A program made the translations under genes and the position numbers. A stretch of DNA of 64,000 nucleotides, taken from NCBI GenBank assembly GCA_963930775.1, contig OZ005689.1, positions 23,558,058 to 23,622,057 on the forward strand. Reading direction: 5' to 3'. The notes below the pieces were generated by a model. The model was not told the origin of the DNA. It worked only from the letters and a program-made list of their open reading frames with translations, and searched no databases. The stretch is from Cliona cf. orientalis. Taxonomy: Eukaryota > Porifera > Demospongiae > Clionaida > Clionaidae. Below are positions 5,558-41,404 of this stretch, in pieces; within the stretch, counting starts at the first letter, position 1, and every line of letters starts with the position of its first letter.

Positions 5558-7428
5558 ATGGATCAGAATCAGTTCATGGACACGTTGAAAGCTGCTATGG
5601 CGGACCCAATGACTCGCAGCATTATTGCGAATGCACTCAACGAGTCAGGCCCACCATCTGTAGTTGAAAGCGATGAAGAGAATGTTGATTCCGAACGTGA
5701 GTAATCATAAACTCAGTGTGATGTCCAGGGGGGAAAATGCTGCATGGACTATAATGAAGAGTCTATGGCCTTATAGATGTGTCCCCGATTGCTACCACAG
5801 TGAATCCACGATATTTGATAGATGATCCCTTAGCTTCAGAGGATGATGCTCATGCCAGTATAGGTGAAGATGATATTCCTTCGCCGAATGACCTTGATGA
5901 AAACATGGGCGATACTGCTGAGGTATGGAGCACTGAGCTACTGGTAGGATACTTTTAGTGTAATTTTGTATGAATGTAGGACACTACCCCAGATAAGCCT
6001 GAAGCAAATAAGACAGATTCAGTGGATCCGGAGTTCAGTGCCAGTGCAGATCTTGATCCTGATGAACTACTGGCAAAAAAAATCACCAGAAAACCCTACA
6101 AGCATTGATGTGGTTGCTGTGTTTCTGATTATTTTGCCAAAGGCCAAAATAATCCAGCCAAGACAAAATTTAGGGTAAATACACATGTATTTGTATTATA
6201 CTGGTAGCTGTACTCTGATTGTTGGGATGTATTATTATTGTGCACGCTTTACCATTTAGCATGTGATGCAAAAAGCAGCCTTGGAGGCAAGAGCATATGG
6301 AAAGCGTACGTACAGTCAGCTCAGACCAGCACAAAAGAAGCACATCATTGACAGAGTAAGTACATACATGTATGCATACACAAGTTACTTAGTATTCACG
6401 CATAGTGTAAGTGGTATTCCAATAGATTATCTCCCAATGTCCTGAGCTCAGCGGTCATGAAGAAAAGGTCCACAAGGAATTATGTAGGGCTCTTATACAA
6501 GCTAAATACTACAATTATTGCAAGCAAAGTTCGGTGAGAGGTTACTGTACATGTACATTTGATTTTGTATCATGCATGATGGACTTGTGTTTACCGTTAA
6601 ATTTTAGGCTTCCAAAATTTCAGAAAAGCAGGCTTCGGGGGCTACTGGGGGCCATGGAAAACATCCATCCAAAGACAGTGGTATACCAGGTAGTAACAAG
6701 AAAATGAAAGTGAGAAATACCACAGAAGCCGGTGCCAAGAAAAATAAAAGCAGAAACACCATAACTGAAAGCAAGAAATCAGGCAAAAGAGGCAATAAGA
6801 AGACCAAAGCCACCCCTGCAGGTGGTCCTGAAGCTAAGATTGCTGGTGGTGGCAGTTCGTATGACTTTCACAAAGGGTATGTTAGCTGTGTTTAGTACTC
6901 ACGAAATCCTGCACGTATTCATTTTTGAATTCAACTGATAGATTGTGTAATTCTTACAACTATGAAGAACTTGCTCCGAGCACCTTCATGAAAAGAATTG
7001 ATGGTTAGTAACACAAAATGTTATTAAACTTGCTCACCCGTGCATGTTATTACTAGTTGATCCTAGTTGAAGCACACCACACATATACACGCATTCTAAT
7101 TGAACCACTCCAGTAATATTATAGCTACACTAGTTGGATACATTTCTATGTCCTTTATAGAAATGTTTGCCGAGATACAGTTTGGAGAATATATGGTGGA
7201 TGACCCACTGTACGAGTTTGGCGAAGTTCCCTTACCTCGCCCTACCAGCACAGGAAAACTCCTCTTGCTTCAACTCGAGGTATAACATTAAATGTGTATG
7301 TACATGCACGTGCCTCAATACCCATAGTCTCTTTAGCCTGATGATACTTTTGCTTGGAAGCTTTCCAAATTAAAGAGAAATATAATTGAGTGGTGCAAAA
7401 AGCAGGCTTTGCCAACAAAGAAAGGAGG
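5558..7428 (+). CDS. Multi-exon gene of unknown function, one internal stop
   Basis: I do not recognise the family. The start is MDQNQFMDTLKAAMADPMTR at 5558. The exons visible are about 5558-5696, 5773-5921, 5979-6175, 6261-6357, 6431-6534, 6607-6877, 6944-7003, 7162-7278 and 7337-7428. Most have GT donors and AG acceptors and join in frame. The product would be acidic at the N terminus, then CGCCVSDYFAKGQNNPAK, then MQKAALEARAYGKRTYSQL, then a Lys-rich basic linker (exon 6607-6877). The only clear lesion is a TGA in exon 3, just before CGCC. It could be a host gene or a second ORF of the neighbouring EnSpm-like element. Confidence 0.5.
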
Positions 7429-28132: not shown

Positions 28133-30474
28133 TTGAATGCAGCTGCCTATACCACCTTCACCTCCCTCTGGCGTCAGTTGGCACCCCACATAACTGTCAC
28201 AAAACCTATGTCAGATTTGTGCCGGGTGTGCCAACAGAATAGTGTTAAGATCATGAGAGCTGCTAACACCCCAGAATCAGCGAAGTCACAAGTAACCAGT
28301 GTACACTTCAACTGCAATTTTATCTGAGAAGCGGAAGAGGATGCATAGTAGTGGTTTACAGCACACCTGGCATTGTGAATATCATTATCTAGTGGGGTCA
28401 TGACTGTGTGGTTGACCAACACTCCGTGTTTGCGCCAACAAAGTCAGTAATCTATATAACACTAGGACCGTGCTACTGATTAGCAACTACCTAGGCTTCA
28501 TTTTTTGAGATTTTAGGGCCTTGGTTGTCCATACCTACTGTAGGTACTGATTCCATTCCAAGGCTTCTAAATGAGCTATATGGAAGGATTGTAAATCTCG
28601 AGTTTGAGAGTCTGGGGTTGTCTGTTACTGAAATGTACCACTTTTGAAGTTGACCTCAGACACAAGCAATTGAGATAGTGGCTGTACTGCGAAGGCCACA
28701 GAAGTTTTGTTACTAGAGCTGGAGTCTTTCGAGTTGGGTAGTAGCTAGCGCTATGGTAGAGCTTCTATTTGTCATTTACTAGACAAAATTACTACTTTCT
28801 GGACAAAAGTTACACGCTGTTGAATAGTGCGTATTATCATTGATGTTGATGTCTCTGTAACTCTGAAGATACTCGAACAGAATCATTCTCGATTGTTGTA
28901 CAAATAGTTCAAGGGTTCTTCTATGCCAGGTTAAAGCCGGTAAGCCTAAGCTTTGCTGTTACTAAAATGTACCACTTAAAACCATACCCATGTACAGTGA
29001 GAGGTGGCATGCCTCGGGCGCTGTTAGCTCGCTTGTTTGCCAGCTGATGGCCTTGAAATGTATAACATCGTTTAGTACTACCTTCGAGCTACATTTTGAG
29101 CTCAAGAACAGCCTTATTGGATGAACAGAAACGTTGGTAGAGTTACATAAAAGTTGACAATATAGTATGCGGGCACGGTTTGTGCATATTATCATTATCT
29201 CCCATACGTACTGTACAAACCATAAAATTCCGATAAACGTATGGACTTCCGGCAGTTGTAGCGTACACTGTAACTATGCAATACGTGTACTTACTTAACG
29301 TCAACACTGTCTGTGATTTGTAGGTGCTCAAGGATGCGGAGGAACATCCACAGCTGGCCACTCAAGAGAGGTCTTTCTATAGAAGTGCCATTGATGCTGC
29401 GAAAGAGGTACTAAAGACCACCTTTACTGTTGACGGCCACCTTCACGTCCCATCAATCAGCAGCTGCTTGCGACCTGCATGCCATAAGATAGAAATGCAC
29501 TTCAGCTTTGACATGGCCCAACAAGTACTGTGCACATAGTTAATCACTTACGTTTGATGCAACACATGTAGGTGCATTATCCTGGTGATCCTCAGCAGCC
29601 TGGGCCTACGTATTTTCTAACACCTCACAAATGTGCCATTTTTGGTGCTTGTTGTGAGGCTGTAAGACAGGTAGGATTAATACATTGTTCATGATTAGTA
29701 TGCTCTCATAGCATGTAAAATGTCACTTCCTTTAGGTCAACTACCTCATTGATGAGGCCGTAAACACAGGCAAAGGGGCAAATAATATCATCAGTATGCT
29801 ACACCATTTATTTCCTTGAGACCCACAATCTAGGGGCAGCACCTCCATGCAGACAACTGCAGCAGCCAGAACAAAAACCGGTTCGTCATGCAATACCTTG
29901 CCTGGTGAGTCCTGGTTGACCTTAATGACAGGATAACATTGTCGTTCCTCGTAGTAGGGCAAACCAAGTTTTCGCCCGATTGATGTTTAAAGCAGGCATA
30001 TCATCGGGCGAAGAATGGGTGCCTTGAAGACATCGTGAAGGTTGTTGAGAGTTCTGCAGTTGTAAATCATGCACTGCTAGTAGGAACACAAGATGGCCAA
30101 GTAGTGGTACCTACCTACCTACGATTGGGCACAGTTTTTTTGACACCTTCAAGCAGACAGCTCTGAAGGGCATTAAAGCCATGCACCACTTCTTAACATT
30201 CTCAGGTCATAAGCCAGGAGTTGTGATAGTGAAAGATTCTGTAACCAGTCCAGAGAGAGAACTGAATCTCCTACGACACAGTAACTGGAAACCTGCTGCA
30301 GCTGATCTTCCACCCATCATTCCTCCACCAGGTCTTTCACTAGAGCGCCGGCAGTATATCTACGACAGAATCAGAGAATTTTGTCCACCAGAGTGCCAGG
30401 ATCTCGTGTGTCCATGTCGGACGCAGGCCGAGCACACCACGCATCCACCGGCTAAAAGAGAGCACCATAACTGA
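28133..30474 (+). pseudogene. HADNCGGQNKN-family element gene, copy 3
   Basis: Plus-strand blocks in the same order as copy 2: 28133-28300 (AAYTTFTSLWRQLAPHITVT, CRVCQQNSVKIM), about 29323-29523 (HFSFDMAQQ), about 29571-29670 (DPQQPGPTYFLTPHKCAIFG), about 29736-29900 (VNYLIDEAVNTGKGANNIIS, then HLHADNCSSQNKNRF in another frame) and about 30060-30474 (VIVKDSVTSPERELNLLRHS, CPPECQDLVCP). GG in the signature is replaced by SS. The acidic N-terminal exons and the zinc knuckle are missing. Frameshifts near 29815 and 30110 make it dead. It ends next to the 3' end of the kinase gene. Confidence 0.65.
28301..29322. other. Intron or inserted sequence within copy 3; no gene seen
   Basis: About 1 kb between two coding blocks of copy 3. 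Two partly similar segments, GTTACTGAAATGTACCACTT near 28624 and GTTACTAAAATGTACCACTT near 28958, may be a diverged direct repeat. No exon or RNA gene is supported. Confidence 0.4.
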
Positions 30475-30619
30475 GCACCATTCATAGAATTATTTTTTTG
30501 TACATGTACACATTCTTTGACAAACAGTATGTTAGGTCGTTCATGCATGTGATATTCCATACACTTTTGTGATAGCTCTTGTAGTAATTTATGTTGAAGT
30601 GATGTAGCCGTATCATTAA
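30475..30619 (-). pseudogene. Protein kinase gene, C-terminal fragment
   Basis: On the minus strand, the sequence beyond the left end of the first Kolobok element reads SVINDTATSLQHKLLQELSQ, then KCMEYHMHERPNILFVKEC. This continues in frame from the kinase C-lobe at 36230-36750 once the element (30620-36225) and one TTAA are removed. The Cys and the RP pair fit the end of a kinase C-lobe, where helix H carries a conserved Arg. The natural stop is uncertain because the neighbouring element copy begins around 30475. Confidence 0.6.
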
Positions 30620-30929
30620 AGGGGGACTTTCATGAAAAAAAAATAAATTCAATTTATGATCTTAACTTATACTTTATATGGTGCAGATATCAGAAATGAC
30701 AGTCAAAAAAATCATAAAAATTCATAAGACCGCAAAACCAGCGTTCTTTTTATGCGCGAATTATTGTAAAACGAACATTGCACTATACTTCCTGTTTGGG
30801 CGGAGCGTTAACGTGACGTCACAAGGGGGGTACGCTGGGCATGGGATCGGGATGGCCAGTACATGCAGTACAGCGTACCGTGTATGATTGGCTACGAGAG
30901 GAGACGTTTTGACGTGCGTTAGCACTGAA

Positions 30930-32284
30930 ATGGAGTCCTCTAGTCGTTCTAGTAGTGAGTTAAGCCTTCGTTATTCATCCTCGCCGTTACCGTGAAGAGG
31001 AAGAGGAGTCTGCCAGTTCTTCCGATGATGAATCCAGGACTGATAGGCTCGATAACAATGACTGGTAAGCTATACATAGTGGAATGTTGCTTTTAACCGA
31101 TTATGGGCGATAGACGCCAATTGGCATCATATACGTAATGTAAGTTATAGGCGATTGACGCCAAATGGCGTCAAAGCCGTTTTCTTCGCGTTTTTCGTGC
31201 ATAGCGCTAGGCTACTACGCTCTACGTCAGGTTTGTGGTTAGCCGCTGACCGCCGCTACTAAGTTATGGCTTCAGGTCGCGCCGGTAGCAATTAAGTGGG
31301 TGTGACCGATACCGTTAACCAAGCCGCTCGATCGCCATTACGATCGACCCGGGCGAAAGTTCGAGGCTATTATCGTTGAACCAACAGAGCTACAGCCATG
31401 GCGCTTGGTCCATAGCTAGACGAGTGGATAGCGACTACCTACGAGTAGCCGCTTTGTGAAGCCAACCTTGAACGCGAGCGGCAGACTTAAAGACGGCGGC
31501 CATGATCGAGGTAAGAAGGCTTTTAAGCTTTTAGACGCTACTACAGCGTTTAGTTCGATAGTGTACGGCGGGACAGAAGAACGTGAGGCTTCTGGCAACT
31601 TATGTAGTTGTCAACAAAGCCTTTAGAGGTAGCTAAGGCCTGTTACTTAGCTACAATAAGCTTGTCTATAGGACGCTTTATTTTCATGTTAAATATTTCG
31701 GAGTTCAAAGTTCAATTGACCCGTACAACCCCGCCCATAATCGGTTAAGCATATGAAAATAATAATATAATACTGAAACAATGTAAATTATATCAATGAT
31801 CATCATGGTACATGTAGGTGTCAATGTGGAAATTGTGTACCGATGCCCACACCAGTCGAGTGTGTGTGCTGTAAGGAAATCACTGCTACGGCTAATAAGT
31901 GTGAAACAGCTAGTTCTGATGAACCAGTGATGTGCATTACCGAACACGAGGGCTTTGATGCCGTTTGCCTGAATGTTTGGGTTTTAAAGCTGGCTTTTTC
32001 AGTTACCGTTACCACTACGGCACTCGTGATGTTGGAGATACCCCTACACATGAGTAAGTTGCCTCGAAAGAGGATATGATCCTTAAGCTTGACTGTTATT
32101 AAACTCTACTTCATATAGGCAATACAGGTTTATTGCATATAGACAGTTTGTATGTTGGTGCTGGGGTTGGCTTGGACGGAACGTGTGTGTCACTTTACCC
32201 AGCTGTGCTGTGAACAGAATACGAACTAAGTTTCAGTCAGCTGACGGTCAATACACAGGATTCAAGTATCCACCACTCTCTTAA
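30930..32284 (+). pseudogene. P2X7-ballast-like gene of Kolobok element 1
   Basis: Three exons: 30930-31064, 31818-32053 and 32119-32284. Exon 1 encodes Ser and acidic residues (EEEEESASSSDDESRTDRLD) ending in NDW. Exon 2 encodes WCQCGNCVPMPTPVECVCC and CITEHEGFDAVCLNVWVL, and then, one frame over, YRYHYGTRDVGDTPTH. Exon 3 encodes QYRFIAYRQFV, WCWGWLGR, LPSCAV and GQYTGFKYP. The Cys pattern and the final YRxF...LPSCxV...GxYxGF run match the P2X7 C-terminal ballast, a zinc- and GDP-binding domain. There are no transmembrane segments, so it is not a channel. Frameshifts occur in exons 1 and 2. The 31097-31744 MITE sits in intron 1. Confidence 0.8.
31097..31744. mobile_element. TTAA-flanked MITE, copy 2 (648 bp)
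   Basis: The ends are CCGATTATGGGCG and reverse complement, with TTAA at 31093-31096 and 31745-31748. Size and first eight bases match the MITE at 16979-17631, as do the subterminal GACGCC/GGCG-type palindromes. It is inserted in intron 1 of the ballast-like gene. Confidence 0.75.
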
Positions 32285-32347
32285 TATTATTATTGTTAGA
32301 ATGATGTATAATGTGAAAGTATTATATAGTTTATCACAAGTTACAGA

Positions 32348-35300
32348 CTATAGATTAAATCTACTCTTGTGGCTCTTGATAGCAGATGACTTTTCGGGTC
32401 TTTCGTACTGGGTGCTTAGTGTGCCTGGTATATTATCGGAGGATAATTCTTCAATAATTCCACCCCTACATCTTCTCAGTGTCTCCGTCATGAGCATCTC
32501 AACATATTCTAATCAGACAATAGATATTCCTCACAGTGTTAAAATTAACAACATTGGCATTAAACTTACTGGGTTAACTGATCTTCCTCACAATATGACC
32601 TCCCTTCTTATACTTTGAAAAAGTATCTCAAATCGTTCCTCTCCACCGAATGTCACGGCTTGCTCTCTTGAGGAATTTTCATTGAAATGGAGGGCTGCCA
32701 AGGCCAACCTATTAGTATGGAGTGCATGAGAGGACGTACTATTTAGTATTATGATTGTGCATAGTACCATAGTATAGCCGAAAATTGTAACCACGTTTGG
32801 TTTGTGTTGGACTTATTTCTTTTGCTAAAGCAATTTTACCAATAAGAAGTGCAGAAAGTGGTAACAATTTTCTCAGTGAAATTACGGCTATACGGTAAAC
32901 AAAATTTGATTGAATTCTGATATACCTGCAATTCATCCCATGGTAGGAGAATGGTACATACTTCGGAGCAAAATGAATGATAACACTATGAAAGGCTTCC
33001 AGAGAGGATGTTTGGTGCACAGGGGATAGTCTGCGCACAGCTTTGCAAAGTTCAGTGTTAGTCAGAAGAGTAGAGAGTTTCTCACTCAGTTTTGAATCTA
33101 TAAAAGGCATAATAATTATTATCATACATTATTACTAATGAATACCATGCATGCTGAGAAGTTTACGCCTTCTAAACCATTTCTTTCTATTTTCATTGCC
33201 AGTCAATTCTTTGTGTACACACCTGGGAAACTTTTTGTCGCTGTGCGTATGGCTGTTGTGTACATGGTTGTCCAGGGACAACCACTTAGCCACCATAGTC
33301 TCCGGATCACCATCTTTCGTGGAAGCGACACACCAATAAAGGTGGTTTACGATGCTTTTCTGCCAAGTTCCTATTATCTGACATTCTTTCTGTTTGGCTG
33401 CTGCTTCTAATTTCTTACGAAACCCTGCATTGCAATAAACATAAGTACAGGGTTTATTTCAGGATTCTCTCAAGTGGGGGCAAACATAGCAGCAAACTTC
33501 AAGGGGGGGGGCAATCCCATAATATTATTAGATATAGGAAAAGCCAACTTCCAAGGTGGGGGGGCAGGGGCGGATCCAGGATTTATCAGAGGGGGTTCTT
33601 AGTTAACAGTATGCGCGCGAATTTTTAGGCCACGCCCACTTCGCTCGTTGACCACATCCATTTCTCGCTAGATTGCGTGTTCGAGGTCTTATGATGCGCT
33701 CCAAGACTTCAAATCAACCAAATATTCACTAAGAAACGTCCAAGTAGGTGAGCTAAAGACAGAGGCTTCAGTACTGTAGCTAGCTAAAGGCATGGGGGGT
33801 TCTATGAAGCCTAGACTTTACACTACTATACAGGCTAAGTATCAGACAGCTAGTCAGAAAGGGGGGTTCGTTCGAGCCCATCGAACCCCCTCTGGATCCG
33901 CCCCTGGGGGGGATCTACCCCACAATTGGCGGAAACTCCCCCGCTTTTCCCGAAATAAACCCACAACCAAATTCATCTCACCCTTAGCAACATGCCAGAC
34001 ATCATAGTAGTGGATAATGGATGGATAGCTCTCACGCAGCCACTTGTTAATTTGTTTGTGCCTGTCAGTCACCAAAACTTCTATAGTCAATTTCTCTTGC
34101 TGTAGGAACGTGAGTACCCTCTGAAGCCCTTCTTTTTCCATATGGTAGCTCCCACCCACTTCATTACTCTGTACATAAAGGTACTAAATTTGTTAACACC
34201 AGTGATTACAACATTAACACGTATACAGACACACCTGGACCAGTTTGTAGTCGAGCACCTTGTTGCATGACATCTCTATCACAGTGTAGGAACCATATTT
34301 TGCGCTATGCCCAGGACTATCGGCTCGACCATCCCCTGAGAGTGCCAATTTCTTCTGGTCCCTCAGGTTTGTTAACAAAGCTAACTGTTCAGATTTCCAT
34401 AGACTACAAATTGCCGGCTGAAGGTATTGCCGTTGGTGTCTGAAAAACGTACCAGGGGATATGCAGCAACAATTTATTATTTTAACAACTCTGAGTGTTT
34501 TGGTTGGTAGAGCACCAGCAAAAAGAATTGCAGCTGATAGAGAAACGTTTCCTTTCGGTATGTTGCCCACCATGGGTTGGCTATCCCATATCCAGTAACT
34601 GTGGCACCTTGAACATGTTTGAGTTACACGGAGAAGGGAGCCATGGATCATCTTCTTGATCTCAACACATTTGCTCAGGCAATTTCGGCATGTTGCAAAA
34701 AGGAGGAAAAGGGCAGACTCGAAAACAATGTAGCAAGACGAGGAATTGGCCGACAATTGAATGGAAGATGGTGTGGTTGAATCTTGCCTATTAAATGTTA
34801 TATTATTACAATTCTCATAATACATAGGTAAATTAATACACTTACGAAAACGAGTCGTCTAGAGTATAAGCTGATGTATCGTGGTCTGTTGTTTCTTGCT
34901 GATCAAACTCTGACTGAGAGCTATCGGATGGTATGGGGCTTGATGTTGGAAGGTACAGTGAAGCAATGGTTGGAGGTTCCACTATTGAACATTGAATTCC
35001 GATTTCTCGTATGGTAAGTGAGCATTGTACACCACAAGTACGGACACTGAACTGCACATTCACCTGTACACCTGTAATCACAAAAATTAATAGTAATACA
35101 GAGATAACATCACATTACTACGTGTACGATAGCTTCTCGGATACATATCAGATTATCAACAACATAACTGCAGGCCTTCGACGGCTGTACATGTACAATG
35201 CTATTACTATTATAGCTACTGTAACAACTACTGGATTGAAATGTTTGTTTGCTGATAATCTGCTACAAGAAGTTGATGTATTCGTAAAAATTACTTAACA

Positions 35301-35977
35301 CTACAGCACCTTCAACAGATACTAACCACAAGTTTTAGTCCTTTGAGTAGTCTGGACACGAGCATTTTTTCTCTCTGGAACAACTTGAGTCCCAGTGTCA
35401 TAGAGCAATGGCTTCTCACTCGGGGTACTTGGTTCTGAGGGCATGTCTGCATCTGGATCTGGCTCAGGAGCAGCCACAGATAGAAGTTCTGACACAATCT
35501 ATGTTATTGTAGCCGCGGTCATACACATGCATGTGATTCACTTACATTATTTTTAAACTGCTTACTCTAGATCTCTCTCTCTTCTCATAGGCTGTTCTAA
35601 TCTTCTTAGTAGTTGTATCAGCAAATGAGCTACCTGTAGAGCTCCTTTTTCGAGATACTCTGCTTGGACCAGGTTCAGGCTGAGCCAAACTTGGCAGCTG
35701 TATCGCAGGCTTATCAAACACAGTAGGCACAGCATCAGGTTTCAACCTTCTGCGCTTCTGAATGCCCATTTGTGCTGCCAACTCGGAGTCAACCTCGAAG
35801 CAGCTGCTCTCAAAATGCTGGCTGCACAAAACGCTGTGCTCACTTGGACAATCCCAGTTCGCTCTCGTTTTCTGAACATTTCTGATCCATTTTTGGCGTA
35901 GCGCACGGTCCTTGGGAAACTTGAACAGGCTTACACCGTGTATTGGAGCAATTAGCAGCAACACAGTTCTTCACCAT
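32348..35977 (-). pseudogene. THAP transposase of Kolobok element 1
   Basis: Starts at 35977 (MVKNCVAANCSNT), then shifts frame into GVSLFKFPKDRALRQKWIRN, EHSVLCSQHFESSCFEVD and DAVPTVF, a full C2CH THAP DNA-binding domain. Later exons: 34825-34214 (WDSQPMVGNIPKGN, SAAILFAGALPTKTLRVV, SGDGRADSPGHSAKYGSYTV), about 34159-33970 (GGSYHMEKEGLQRVLTFLQQ, VLVTDRHKQINKWLRE, YYDVWHVAKG), 33420-33140 (WCVASTKDGDPETMVAKWLS), 33125-32940 (TSSLEAFHSVIIHFAPKYVP) and down to SHKSRFNL and a stop at 32348. GDGRAD, TDRH and the DVWH/Glu-Ala-Phe-His regions are candidate catalytic acidic sites. It is broken by the frameshift in the THAP domain. Confidence 0.8.
33565..33906. mobile_element. MITE with CAGGGGCGGATCCAG ends, 342 bp
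   Basis: Terminal repeats CAGGGGCGGATCCAG and CTGGATCCGCCCCTG are perfect over 15 bp. The flanks are G-runs on both sides, so the target duplication cannot be measured. It lies in an intron of the Kolobok 1 transposase, right after the exon ending DVWHVAKG. The CAGGGGCGG start is typical of hAT-derived MITEs, which is only a suggestion. Confidence 0.75.
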
Positions 35978-36229
35978 GATAGTAGATCGATTATCTTTCT
36001 TTCAATGTGCAACTGCGTACGCGTTGCCACATTGTGACGTCACGTTATTGCTCCGCCCAAAACGGAAGAATGATCAAACGCAATATTTCCATGCTAAATT
36101 CTCTCGAGGATTTAGAGCTTCAAAAATTTTTCACAATTTTTTAAATATTTTTCCTAGAATCTACACCATTTAAAGTACAACTTTCAGTAATAATAAAAAA
36201 AAATTTTTTTCATGGAAGTCCCCCTTTAA

Positions 36230-36750
36230 TAACGCTACCTAAAGAAAACATATCAGACGAGGTGGACCTAGGACACTTTCCATCACGTAAATCAGGTGCA
36301 ATATGCGGGTGATTAACTTTATACCGCTCTCTCTGACGTTGAGATAGATTGTATACTCTACCCTTACTTATTTCACAAGCTTTGCCGAAGTCTATTATGA
36401 CAGGTCCTAATGAACCTGCTGGTGGTATGGATGTTAGAACGACGTTATCAGTTTTAAGGTCATTGTAAAGAAGTTTGTGTCTATTCTGCAAATACTCAAG
36501 GCCACAACTTATTTCACCCAGTACGTTGATCCAATCTATATTTGTGAGTTATTTCCTCACATCCTGAGACTGAGTAAAGAGTGCACGATGAATAGTAACA
36601 GAATGATCATTAATTTTAATCCGTGAAAACCAGTGACTATAGAAGGATGATCATCAATACGAACTCCAAACAAATATGGCAAACACCGGTGACAAAATTT
36701 CAAAAGTAGATTAGCCTCTTCCATCAATGCATCATTATTTGTGTGTTTAA
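36230..36750 (-). pseudogene. Protein kinase gene, central catalytic fragment
   Basis: On the minus strand from 36750: HTNNDALMEEANLLLKFCHR (helix C Glu), CLPYLFGVRIDDHPSIVTGF, then DWINVLGEISCGLEYLQNRH, KLLYNDLKTDNVVL (catalytic loop, with YND replacing HRD), GPVIIDFGKACE (DFG) and HIAPDLRDGKCPRSTSSDMF (APE region and helix F). Lesions are a one-base shift after GFHGLK near 36620 and a TAA in the VRK-LTN segment near 36555. The fragment lies exactly between the two Kolobok elements and joins both neighbouring kinase fragments in frame across single TTAA sites. The YNDLKTDN loop resembles Ser/Thr or dual-specificity kinases I associate with basal metazoans. Confidence 0.8.
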
Positions 36751-37001
36751 AGGGAGACTCTCACCAAAATATGAAAAATTATTTTATTGTATCAAACTGT
36801 TGTACGGGTTGATAAGGTAACACAGAATTTTTTTTTAATTTTTTGGTCGATGTTTAGTGAGTGAAACGCTGCTGCTTTTATCCGCCGACCTACCGCTTAC
36901 TTCTTTGGGGCGTGGTCAATGAAAACGTCATCGGTTGAACGGAAGTGCAGTGCTAGTGCACACACAATGAACACGCACTGCTAATGAGGATCTATATAGG
37001 A

Positions 37002-37769
37002 ATGGCCGAGTCAGGGGACGCTTCAAGCTCGGGTGAAAGTTCAAGAGATGGATCTTTGTCTGAGTCCTCAGCTACCGATGAATCGTACGCTTTTGAAGAA
37101 GAGGACGATTCAGCCTCTGATGGGGCCATCGAACCGTACATGTATGAACCTGTAGCCAGTGATTCAGATCATAGTGCCACTCGAGATGAGGAAGAAACTG
37201 GCAGCGCTGAGCGTCTGCTCAGCACTGACTGGTAAGTGCATCGTGATAATCTTACAATTATATCATGATTTAGCTTCACGGTAACACCGTTTGAGCTGTT
37301 ATAGCAGGCCATTTATATTTATTGTGTAGGTGTACATGTGGACAATGTGTTATAGTGTTGAATGTGTCTGTTGTCGCGAGGTGGATGAAGTCGTTCGTAA
37401 AATAGAAGAGAATGATACTGAGGTAGACTGCATAACTTCTCATGAAGGCTGTGTGCCTGAATCGATGGGTTCTTCAGGCAGCCTATTTTGCTTATCGTGA
37501 ACGTTATGGCAGTGATTCGGAAGATAGGCCAATCCATGAGAAAGTGATTTTATATAAGTAGCAAGTGGGTGGTATTTACCCTATGCTAATTTTTTTTGCC
37601 TCAGGCAATACAGATTCACAGCATACCGACAGCTTACAGGATGGTGCTGGGGTTGGTTGGGACGAAAGGTCCGAGTTGTACTACCAAGCTGCGCTGTTAA
37701 GAAAATCAGAGACACCTTCCTTCAGAATCATACATTGGCTTCAAGTATCCCACTACACGACTGTACTAA
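37002..37769 (+). pseudogene. P2X7-ballast-like gene of Kolobok element 2
   Basis: Three exons: 37002-37231 (MAESGDASSSGESSRDGSLS and further Ser/Asp/Glu, ending STDW), 37330-about 37538 and 37605-37769. Exon 2 reads WCTCGQC, ECVCCREVDEVV, CITSHEGCV and then RWVLQAAYFAYRERYG in shifted frames. Exon 3 reads QYRFTAYRQLTGWCWGWLGR, VRVVLPSCAVKKIRDTF and, one frame over, YIGFKYP. Exon boundaries fall at the same places as in element 1. Exon 2's donor (GAGAAAGT) has lost its GT. It would be a soluble acidic-leader plus ballast protein. Frameshifts in exons 2 and 3 make it inactive. Confidence 0.8.
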
Positions 37770-37818
37770 AGATAGCATTATAGTTCAAATGATACATAAC
37801 TCAATATAGCATGAAGGT

Positions 37819-40608
37819 TTAAGTAAATCTACTATTGTGTCTCTGTATAGCATCTTCTTTACTTGGTCTTTCAAACTCGCTACATAAAGGTTTGGGAACT
37901 GATGGTTGGGCTGGGGTGGTTGTTTTCAGCTGATCCCGTTTGATGTGTTGGTTGACACTCTCAGCAACAAGTTCATTTACATAATCTATAATAAAAATAA
38001 CTTATACAAGGATATCCTATGCACACATAAAGACTAGAGCTCACCGTATGTGGGGTCAACAGTAATGTTTCTGGTAATATACCCGCCTTTTTTGTATTTG
38101 GGAAAAACAATCTCGTACGATTCCTTGCCATCTTTTGTGACAGCCTGTTTGCGGCAACTATTCTCATTGAAGTGGAGGGTAGCAAGCTGCATCCTGTGAA
38201 AATCATAATTATGATACTGATACTGAAGTCGTGTATCTGCTTATAGCTACATACCTGGAAGTCATTCCTGGATAAGAAAGAGCTACTGACTTGGGTGCAA
38301 AGTATTATTACACTGTGAAATGATTCCAAATGAGATGTCTGGTACAGTGGAGAGAGCCTGGTCTAAATGTGTGCACTTACGTCTTTTGAACCATTTTCTT
38401 TGAACCGCTGAGTCCAGCATGTGCACACTTGGGAAACAATTTACTGTGGCCACTGTGAATGTTGTGTACGTGATTTTCTAACGACAGCCACTTAGCCTTG
38501 ACGACTTCACCATTGTCATTAGGAGTGGACGCAACACACCAGTACATGTGGTTTATTATACTCCTCTGCCATTCACCAATTAATTTGCAATCTTTTTGCT
38601 TGGCAAGGGCTTCAAGCTTCTTTCGAAAGCCTACACAATGTCATGGTAATTGTTAGGTTTAATCCATGGTCATATTATACAGTATTTCAAACATAGTCTG
38701 AACGGATAATATACCTTTAACAACATGCCATACATCATAGTAGTGTTTTGTACTGGGATGGGTTTCTCGGATCCATTTGTTTATCTGTCGATGTCGATCT
38801 GTCACTAAAACACCAATAGACATCTTCTTCTCACTCAAAAATGATATAGCTCTTGCCAATCCTTCCTTCTCCATATGGTAACTGCCTCCTACCTCGTTGC
38901 TCTATGACAACAAAGATGGCAATCAACACCTTTCTTCAATAATTATGTGAGTTAATTAGACAATTAATGTGACCATACAATTATTATGATTATGTACCTG
39001 CACAAGTTTGAAATCTACCACTTTGTTGCATGTCAATTCGATCAATGAGTAAGTGCCATACTTTGCTGAGTGTCCAGGGCTATCTATCTGCTCTCCCATC
39101 TCCTGCAACAATTAAGTTATCCTTTTTCTGGAGCTCAGCTAAAAGAGAGTTTTGATGTCGTTCATAAACCTGACGAACAGCTGGAAAAAGATAAGCACTT
39201 TGGTAACGAAAGAATGTAGCCTGGCTAATTGTTGCACAGTTCAAAGTGGAGAAAATCCGGAGGGATTTTGCGGGAAATGACCCAGCAAACAATATGGCAG
39301 CGGAAGTAAGCAAATTACCAGCAGGCAAATTTCCGATATATGGTTGACTTTCCCATACATAGACCTTCCCACATCTTGAACATGATCGAATAATCCGGAG
39401 GAGTGAGCCGCTCACATACTTTTTGATACTGGTACTGGCATGTCCACAGAACGTACACACTTGGAATAATAATAGAAGAGCTGACTCGAATACAAGGTAT
39501 ATTGTTTGTTTCTCAGGTGGAGTTGCAACGCTATCACCCAGGGTATCTGTATCAGACTCTGAATGTGAGCTAAACATATTCAAAAATAAAAGAATAATAA
39601 GATAACTTACAGTTCTGATAGAAGATAAAACTTACGAACTACTGGAGGGCATGTAGGTAGACGTGTTACTGATGTTGTGATCTTCAATGTCAGATAGCTC
39701 TGATTCCGAAGTAGCGTCATGTAATGGGGTCGAAAAGACTATCAGTAGATCACACTGGATACTGACGTCACAAACAGTTGGACAAACCTGGACACCTGCA
39801 ATGAAAACCCAGATATGTATATAGCTGCAAACCATTAATATCGTTCACCTCATCCCCAGTGTTACACAGAAAATGGGAGGTTACACACGCACACACACAG
39901 CATGCACATGCACGCACACACACACTTCATAATTTTATGTGACACGATATGTACGTGTACATACATTACCATTTGATTCGGTTGACGGGTAAGTTTGAAT
40001 GGAAACATCGTGCCTGGAAACAGTACGGTTATCACTTTCTGTACTCCCTTGCGTATGCTGTTCATCTGGTGTTTGTGTCTGCATGCCAGTAGCACTACTT
40101 GATGCGGATTGACTTGCAAGAAGTTCCTGGACTATCTGTATAATTTGTGATACTCGTATCAGTATTTTTATCTTACAACCAGGCCCTATTTAAAATTTAA
40201 GTACTATAGCTCAGTAATTATACATACCCTATAGTTTTCATGTTTCTCATACGCCATTCGCTTCTTTGAGCTGGACTCGCTACTATTTGAGCACGGTGAG
40301 ACTCTCTTTCCGAGGGTTCTACTCGTCGCCGAGGACCTGGTAAATATACTTGGGACAGCATCTGCTTTCAGCCTTTTTGTCCTTTTCATTCCAAACTCGG
40401 CAGCTAACTTCGATTCAACCTCGAAACATTCGTCGCTGAAATGTTCACTGCACAACACAGAGTACTCGGTACACGTCCACTCCGCTCGGAACCTGCTAAC
40501 TTGCTTGATCCAAAGAGCGTGAAGCTTCTCATCTTTTGGAAATTTAAATAAGCTTACACCATCAGCATTGGTGTTAGAACACCCAGCGGCTACGCAGCGC
40601 TTGACCAT
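37819..40608 (-). pseudogene. THAP transposase of Kolobok element 2
   Basis: Starts at 40608 with MVKRCVAAGCSNTNADGVSL, an intact THAP domain (C-x4-C, then VLCSEHF, ending AVPSIF). Exon 39583-39080 has SCSRCGKVYVWESQPYIGN, TSAAILFAGSFPAKSLRIF and VAGDGRAD, where a 4-base AGAT duplication shifts the frame before the expected SPGHSAKYGTY. Exon about 38895-38716 has GGSYHMEKEGLARAISFLSE, VLVTDRHRQINKWIRE and YYDVWHVVKG. Exon about 38635-38390 has NHMYWCVASTPNDNGEVVKA. Further exons follow to SKEDAIQRHNSRFT and a stop at 37819. A THAP plus RNase-H-like transposase is typical of Kolobok. Only a few small indels separate it from an intact gene. Confidence 0.82.
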
Positions 40609-40854
40609 TCTTGACTCCAGCTCCGTCTTTCGTTTCACACTCGAGGTACATGTACAATGCATGCTCATACTCACGTTCATGTGCACTTCCGTTCAACCGA
40701 TGACGTTTTCATTGACCACGCCCCAAAGAAGTAAGCGGTAGGACGACGGATAAAAGCAGCAGCGTTTCACTCACTAAACGTTGACCAAAAAATTTTTTTA
40801 AATTTCTGTGTTACCTTATCAACCCATATTTCATATTTTGGTGAGAGTCTCCCT

Positions 40855-41404
40855 TTAAGAACTTTCTCACACACACTGAAATGACCTAGTGTCCGTAAGT
40901 AATACACTCCAAACCGCCCTGATCCAAGACATCGTTTCACTGATGAGCCAAAATCTCCTTCACTGATAATCTTTACACACACAAAAAGTGAAGTGTGCGT
41001 AGCTTTATTGATGAAGTGACCACTGGTTCCAACTGTAGCAAGGCCAAGTTGACGTATCTGATTGCAACGACTATCGGGATCTCTTAGCACAATGTTTCCA
41101 AGCTCTGCTTTGTCGAGTTTCCTAAAATGAAATTCATAGATAGTAAATTATCACTAATCATAACTGATATCACGAAGAAACCGACTTACTTCTTCAACAG
41201 CTTATTGCTAGAGACAGTATTGGCTGCTAGCTTCTTCAAACTCATCGTATGCCTATTTAACCAGTTAACTTCTAAATCTCTGTTATCAAGAGCTTCTTTT
41301 AGTCGCTCTACTCTTCCTGGCCGCTGCTTCTTTAGTCGTTTTGTTTTATACAAAGCTTTCCTTTCCTTCTTTTTCTTGCTCTTTTCTTCATCCATGGCTA
41401 TCAC
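40855..41404 (-). pseudogene. Protein kinase gene, 5' exons and N-lobe
   Basis: Exon 1 (41404-41190) starts MDEEKSKKKKERKALYKTKR and continues as basic coiled coil. Its donor GTAAGT is followed by exon 2 at 41121, and the split Lys codon is restored. Exon 2 reads KLDKAELGNIVLRDPDSRCN, then GLATVGTSGHFINKATHTSL, then CLGSGRFGVYYL (glycine loop) and VCEKVLK (Lys of the N-lobe), where it stops at the Kolobok 2 right end. Removing that element and one TTAA continues directly into KHTNNDALMEEANLLL. The promoter is not identifiable. The gene is a host-like kinase inactivated by insertion and point lesions. Confidence 0.75.

Follow-up and report, generated by a model that had tools for sequence, protein, structure and literature searches.

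Kolobok transposons of the sponge Cliona cf. orientalis that carry a gene for a P2X7-type ballast

Two elements and their genes

The window analysed here, a stretch of 64,000 nucleotides from the sponge Cliona cf. orientalis (GCA_963930775.1, contig OZ005689.1, positions 23,558,058 to 23,622,057 of the forward strand), holds two Kolobok transposons, E1 and E2, which belong to one type (class A) and are assigned no strand as whole elements. In each of them a transposase gene on the minus strand is accompanied by a plus-strand gene whose product resembles the cytoplasmic ballast of the P2X7 receptor. Kojima and Bao reported in 2022 that KolX, the second protein of the Kol0 Koloboks, has the cytoplasmic ballast fold (PMC9587614), and the name KolX is used here for the window genes. 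Kol0 elements were reported from sponges, cnidarians, annelids and vertebrates (PMC9587614). E1 and E2 share with Kol0 the TTAA duplications, the RR...YY ends, a putative DDE transposase and a second protein with the ballast fold, the last assigned from sequence alone. E1 is 5606 bp long (30620-36225) and is flanked by TTAA at 30616-30619 and 36226-36229 (30616..36229 with the duplications); its ends read AGGGGGACTT(T/C)CATG and its outer inverted repeats agree in 17 of 18 bases. E2 is 4104 bp long (36751-40854), with TTAA at 36747-36750 and 40855-40858 (36747..40858 in all) and outer inverted repeats that match at all 18 bases.

The three exons of each KolX gene were read by eye from GT/AG sites. 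In E1, exon 1 (30930..31064, plus strand) encodes an acidic, Ser-rich leader, exon 2 (31818..32053) encodes the zinc-cysteine half of the ballast (WCQCGNC...ECVCC...CITEHEG...VCLN), and exon 3 (32119..32284) encodes the C-terminal half up to the stop codon (YRFIAYRQ...WCWGWLGR...LPSCAV...GQYTGFKYP). The corresponding exons of E2 lie at 37002..37231 (Ser-rich acidic leader, splice site by eye), 37330..37540 (end approximate) and 37605..37769, also on the plus strand. As judged by eye, the first intron splits the Trp codon of the WCxC motif in both copies. The Pfam family PF20478 (P2RX7_C; curated cut-off 23.5 bits) recognizes exon 3 of both elements above its cut-off, with 46.7 bits for E1 (E 4.4e-12) and 28.9 bits for E2 over 37606-37755 (E 1.3e-6). 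Searched by itself, exon 3 of E1 also finds P2X7 chains among PDB structures (best E 6.6e-5). Exon 2 of E1, which is rich in cysteines, gave no match when searched alone against Pfam and matched a profile built in this analysis weakly (E 0.33); a comparison of its cysteine pattern with that of open relatives was made by eye. Exon 2 of E2 was likewise placed by eye (compare positions 6192-6449 of locus L028).

Both KolX frames look interrupted. By eye, the E1 gene has an early stop in exon 1 and a frame shift in exon 2, and the E2 gene has frame shifts in exon 2 and close to the end of exon 3, so that both genes look like pseudogenes and E1 and E2 look like decayed copies. Relatives with open frames include L028 and L018 (exons 2 and 3 open) and L010 and L014 (open single-frame genes). 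E2 has a second copy at C19:5716686-5721004, which is 98% identical over the first 500 bp and has open KolX exons 2 and 3.

The transposase genes lie on the minus strand of the window. E1 has core pieces at 32742..34858, in which GDGRAD, TDRH, DVWH and EAFHS motifs were found by eye, and a THAP domain at 35545..35970 (PF05485, E 1.6e-17); E2 has core pieces at 37976..39631 and a THAP domain at 40207..40692 (PF05485, E 2.2e-17). Kolobok transposases usually carry a THAP domain (PMC6004289), as those of both window elements do. The motifs of the transposase pieces (GDGR, TDRH, DVWH, E(S/A)FHS) were read by eye and not from an alignment to reference Kolobok cores. The E2 piece at 38662-38901 (minus strand), which contains TDRH and DVWH, gave a weak match below the cut-off to the transposase of Mutator-like elements (MULE; PF10551, E 2.2e-4), in line with the DxxH motif common to the Kolobok piece and MULE.

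A first-pass annotation made from the sequence of the window had described most of this arrangement. Its two TTAA-flanked elements at 30620-36225 and 36751-40854 have the right coordinates, and a THAP transposase is indeed encoded in each. It had assigned the second gene to the ballast family, and the search with hidden Markov models that it had called for places both exons 3 in P2RX7_C and not in an unrelated family. The three-exon ballast genes that it drew on the plus strand are present, with borders read by eye and with the qualification that both look decayed.

Ballast and transposase across the genome

The genome searched comprises 216.8 Mb. The searches score only the best candidates, and the genome counts given here are therefore lower bounds. 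PF20478 has at least 25 matches at E up to 0.001, while the E2 transposase piece, used as a query, has at least 32 matches that group into 24 loci. A transposase locus lies within 5 kb of 17 of the 25 ballast matches, where 0.03 would be expected, and all 17 pairs are oriented tail to tail. Twenty of the 25 ballast loci were fetched, E1 lies in the window, and the other four were judged by neighbouring transposase matches. Transposase pieces were found with profiles built in this analysis in 17 of the 20 fetched loci, which brings the ballast matches with a transposase within 5 kb to 22 of 25 when E1 and the four unfetched loci are counted as well. Conversely, ballast sequence was detected in 23 of the 24 transposase loci (17 by PF20478, E2 by hmmscan, and five remnants by profile); the six without a PF20478 match were judged on about 3 kb of fetched sequence each. 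The weakest of the five remnants, in L033, has an E value of 0.024 and consists of 28 residues identical to exon 2 of L024. L034 is the single transposase locus without ballast sequence in the roughly 3 kb examined. The KolX alignment, run against viral contigs, produced 36 pattern matches, none of which was a relative.

The ballast and the transposase have been inherited together. Pairwise protein distances of the two are correlated over 19 loci (Mantel r = 0.82, p = 1e-4; 9,999 permutations, best permuted value 0.43), a set that includes near-identical copies such as L010/L011 and E2/L028. Within 10 class A loci the correlation is also found (r = 0.65, best permuted 0.61, p = 1e-4). KolX is moreover under purifying selection and holds the same convergent place in the copies compared. 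Among distant class A copies, the proportion of synonymous differences (pS) in KolX exon 3 is 0.65-1.0 and that of nonsynonymous differences (pN) is 0.08-0.30. The transposase core piece has a pN of 0.28-0.38 among distant class A copies, which indicates that the ballast part is at least as constrained, but the comparison is lopsided since exon 3 is short (48-63 codons) and is the best-conserved part of its gene. The ratio of nonsynonymous to synonymous rates (dN/dS) could mostly not be computed because synonymous sites are saturated. In close pairs, some of which involve decaying copies, it is 0.16-0.63 for KolX and 0.27-0.75 for the transposase.

The near-identical loci L010 and L011 lie on different contigs. 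Their KolX genes differ at 2 of 281 codons, both changes being replacements, and their transposases are identical over 142 codons, which probably reflects recent movement.

The screen for ballast frames within 5 kb of a transposase, which the first-pass annotation had suggested, thus yielded the pairing and the constant orientation described above. That annotation had held that its reading would fail if other copies consistently lacked the gene, and ballast sequence is present in all but one of the transposase loci. It had called the gene a cargo or accessory gene of Kolobok. Carriage by the element is borne out, and, since KolX is a regular and selected component of the element, "accessory gene" fits better than the weaker term "cargo".

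KolX, its leaders and the P2X7 ballast

The transposase tree and the ballast tree show the same main groups. L032 is a class A locus but bears the label of another group in the ballast tree, which thereby gains one false change. In class A, to which the window elements belong, KolX is divided into several exons, whereas in class B (L009-L017 and L020-L022) the KolX frames reach 347 codons and include a cysteine-rich leader. The leaders of class B resemble the CXC superfamily, known from the chromatin proteins MSL2 and tesmin/LIN54 (PMC3447885), in having nine cysteines and a C-terminal Asn. A CXC-like nine-cysteine sequence was found by tblastn in all 12 class B loci with queries from L009, L010, L014, L017 and P0004, so that the first four of these loci match themselves; the weakest matches are those of L021 (18 residues only) and L012 (with a stop). 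Among the 15 class A loci with ballast sequence, five of which were partly fetched, tblastn found no CXC-like sequence, the single class A match falling on the ballast's own cysteines.

The published spacing CX[C/H]X2-13CX4-7CXCX5-60CX2-4CX1-2CX2-15CXN fits 7 of the 12 class B loci, with two units in L014 and one each in L009, L013, L015, L017, L020 and L022. In L010 and L011 a single spacing is off by one residue, and L012, L016 and L021 lack a complete unit. With the frames shuffled, the nine-cysteine pattern occurred once in 148,500, a mild control because it used all frames of the loci, most of which are not cysteine-rich. Nine shuffles of the leader of P0004 reached at most 7.2 bits with the Pfam family PF18264 (preSET_CXC), for which the leader itself is scored below. 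P0034, a protein from a eukaryote collection, likewise combines a ballast with two nine-cysteine units, whose spacing is loose. Unlike the proteins of the CXC superfamily, class B leaders fall below the Pfam cut-off or are unmatched and their DNA binding is putative, and the CXC-like unit is absent from the window elements.

The THAP domain is distributed the other way. Searching the genome at E up to 0.1 yields at least 104 matches to it, of which the 13 best all lie in class A elements, and it occurs in 17 of 20 class A transposase loci. In the nine class B transposase loci, which may hold a divergent or split THAP domain, it was not found among these matches. This THAP/CXC contrast hints that KolX can supply DNA recognition. 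A division of Kolobok elements by THAP on the transposase or CXC on KolX was not found in the literature, preprints and most subscription journals lying outside the search. In particular, the main text of PMC9587614 does not contain "THAP", and no split by DNA-binding domain was found there.

Searched against the PDB, a class B KolX profile finds P2X7 chains, the best E value being 2.5e-23 for a match to residues 465-593 of chain 9e3m, and the seven-cysteine pattern of the P2X7 ballast is kept, by eye, in the KolX copies of the window. KolX of the L014 type differs in lacking the Cys of the CIT motif, with a His two columns beyond, and KolX as a whole differs from P2X7 in lacking the P2X channel domain. 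Rump and coworkers reported in 2020 that the ballast is joined to P2X only in vertebrates (PMC7016195). The NANOR or "ZCD" proteins of that report resemble KolX in being short and soluble with a C-terminal ballast, and those listed include a ZCD from a sponge and, from Ixodes, a protein that has a "TAHP" domain; they differ in being treated there as host genes, and the main text of the report does not contain "transpos" (PMC7016195).

The genome of the sponge also has P2X receptor genes. PF00864 gives at least 24 matches, with one cluster on C10 and a second on C2. No join of P2X to a ballast was seen: C10 has no PF20478 match, and on C2 the nearest one lies at a distance of 456 kb. That no ballast was found close to these P2X genes is consistent with a gain of the P2X7 ballast from KolX. 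The ballast matches seen here lie beside transposases or are broken pieces, which fits a capture from transposon to receptor without proving its direction. The cluster at C10:212595-227697 contains several repeats of the same profile parts and perhaps represents tandem gene copies.

Taken as a whole, the observations are probably best explained by E1 and E2 being decayed Koloboks of the Kol0 kind that carry KolX, by KolX being an accessory protein of the element, and by the P2X7 ballast deriving from KolX. One end of the element starts the transposase gene and the other KolX, the two genes converging, and KolX would act in the nucleus as a partner of the transposase. Within KolX the part that stays constant, the ballast, is probably a zinc-held interaction domain. 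The leader would vary, being acidic and rich in Ser when the transposase itself supplies a THAP domain for DNA binding and a single or double CXC-like (nine-cysteine) unit in elements for which no THAP domain can be found. Vertebrate P2X7 would have gained its ballast from such a KolX gene, as proposed for a P2X4-like gene joined to KolX (PMC9587614). A more specific version, which is put forward only tentatively, makes KolX the DNA-targeting half of a two-protein transposition machine that is held together by the ballast, with DNA recognition assigned to the transposase (THAP) in one Kolobok group of the genome and to KolX (CXC units) in another, so that P2X7 would have acquired an interaction module of a transposon.

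Several points weigh against this explanation. The role of KolX in transposition, its nuclear location and its DNA binding are predictions. Ends were located in 12 of the 22 loci examined (20 fetched and the two of the window); outside those 12, L025 has one inverted pair and L026 has degraded ends. Three ballast loci, L020, L021 and L022, have broken frames and no transposase within 5 kb. The CXC assignment of the leaders is weak by Pfam: PF18264 gives 18.1 bits for the leader of P0004 and 11 bits for P0002 (cut-off 23.3) and finds nothing in the L010 and P0006 leaders, whole L014 or P0034, and a profile of six leaders found no solved structure up to E 10. The THAP/CXC contrast falls on one deep split of the transposase tree, and as classes A and B are separated by one branch it counts as one event and not as a repeated correlation. 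P2X7 sits on a long branch in the ballast tree and its joining point with KolX is not fixed. Finally, the guanine nucleotide of P2X7 is contacted by R546, H547, R574, R578 and K583 (PMC7016195), of which E1 keeps two (R546 and R578) and not H547, R574 or K583. With three of five contacts changed, nucleotide binding is unlikely to be the general function of the ballast, in line with PMC7016195.

KolX could alternatively be a regulator that counters silencing by the host or represses the transposase instead of a partner in transposition. Second proteins of some plant transposons act in these ways. An acidic leader could also activate transcription, CRE-like (cAMP response element) and ETS-like sites are present at the element ends, and CXC units are known from chromatin proteins (PMC3447885). 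The exchange of THAP for CXC, however, fits binding of the element's own DNA at least as well, and a regulatory role is regarded as possible but doubtful.

It is very improbable that KolX is a passenger, that is, a host ballast gene captured several times by Kolobok and of no use to the element. Ballast proteins have been reported as ordinary genes in many animals (PMC7016195), but the passenger reading was rejected by co-inheritance with the transposase, by purifying selection and by the convergent position, which is constant in the 17 pairs and in further loci read individually. The only ballast loci without a transposase within 5 kb are, in addition, the three with broken frames. Slightly less probable still is the reverse direction, with a P2X7-like host receptor as the ancestor of the element gene. 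The ballast tree, whose root is not fixed, leaves room for it, but no ballast was found near the P2X matches of this genome, Kolobok groups that are very divergent have the ballast, and fusions of ballast and P2X were found only in vertebrates (PMC7016195). The placing of a ballast gene beside a transposase by two unrelated chance insertions had nothing found in its favour and was rejected as extremely improbable, given 17 pairs among 25 ballast matches.

The preferred explanation, KolX as an accessory protein of Kolobok from which the P2X7 ballast derives, is in its central part already known. P2X7 is an immune receptor and a drug target, and the origin of its ballast was traced to a transposon protein in 2022 (PMC9587614), the only description of KolX or of a link between Kolobok and the ballast that was found in the literature. 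The first-pass annotation had proposed a mobile source for the ballast of the receptor while knowing of no description of such an element; the proposal holds, in the form already published, and the element had been described. The observation in the window is thus real and its main point known. The window provides an independent case, with statistics for KolX as an integral and selected part of the element. The THAP/CXC contrast is the one added lead, as it offers a testable idea of what KolX does and hence of what P2X7 may have borrowed.

Insertion sites and element ends

TTAA is present on both sides of 10 of the 12 elements with located ends, E1 and E2 among them, as expected for the target duplication of Kolobok. 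L028 has CTAT as its left flank, and L009, which is listed one base off in the end table, reads TTAA beside AGGCATTG. The 5'-RR...YY-3' termini of Kolobok, unlike those of piggyBac, are present as AG at both ends in 11 of the 12 elements, the exception being L027 with TG at one end.

E1 is inserted at a TTAA site in the coding frame of a protein kinase. When either E1 or E2 is removed together with one TTAA, an open frame runs continuously across the junction. The frame at E1 is that of a protein kinase (PF00069, E 1.2e-9 for 36213-36548), and kinase paralogues such as C2:11502363-11502782 align uninterrupted through the insertion site. The interrupted frames at the E1 and E2 sites are 36213-36548 and 40770-41147 on the minus strand, with 30300-30619. 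The piece at the E2 junction gave no match in the Pfam search, and we infer that the frame broken by E2 is perhaps from the same kinase gene. The kinase fragment has 29 matches in the genome, of which two are the window itself.

Short motifs recur in the 320 bp at each end of E1, E2 and ten elements related to them. The CRE-like sequence TGACGTCA occurs in 7 of 24 ends, where shuffling leads one to expect 0.2, and the ETS-like CGGAAGT in 11 of 24 (0.8 expected), counts that take in both inverted ends of each element, which are not independent, as well as near-identical copies. These sites are perhaps promoters of the two convergent genes.

An Rfam search of the window gave no match. Two perfect inverted repeats lie within E1. 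One of 17 bp, TTAACCGATTATGGGCG, bounds 31093-31748 within intron 1 of KolX and perhaps marks a smaller, non-autonomous element of the TTAA type nested in E1. The other, of 15 bp (CAGGGGCGGATCCAG), bounds 33565-33906 within the transposase gene and is perhaps a second nested insert resembling a miniature inverted-repeat transposable element.

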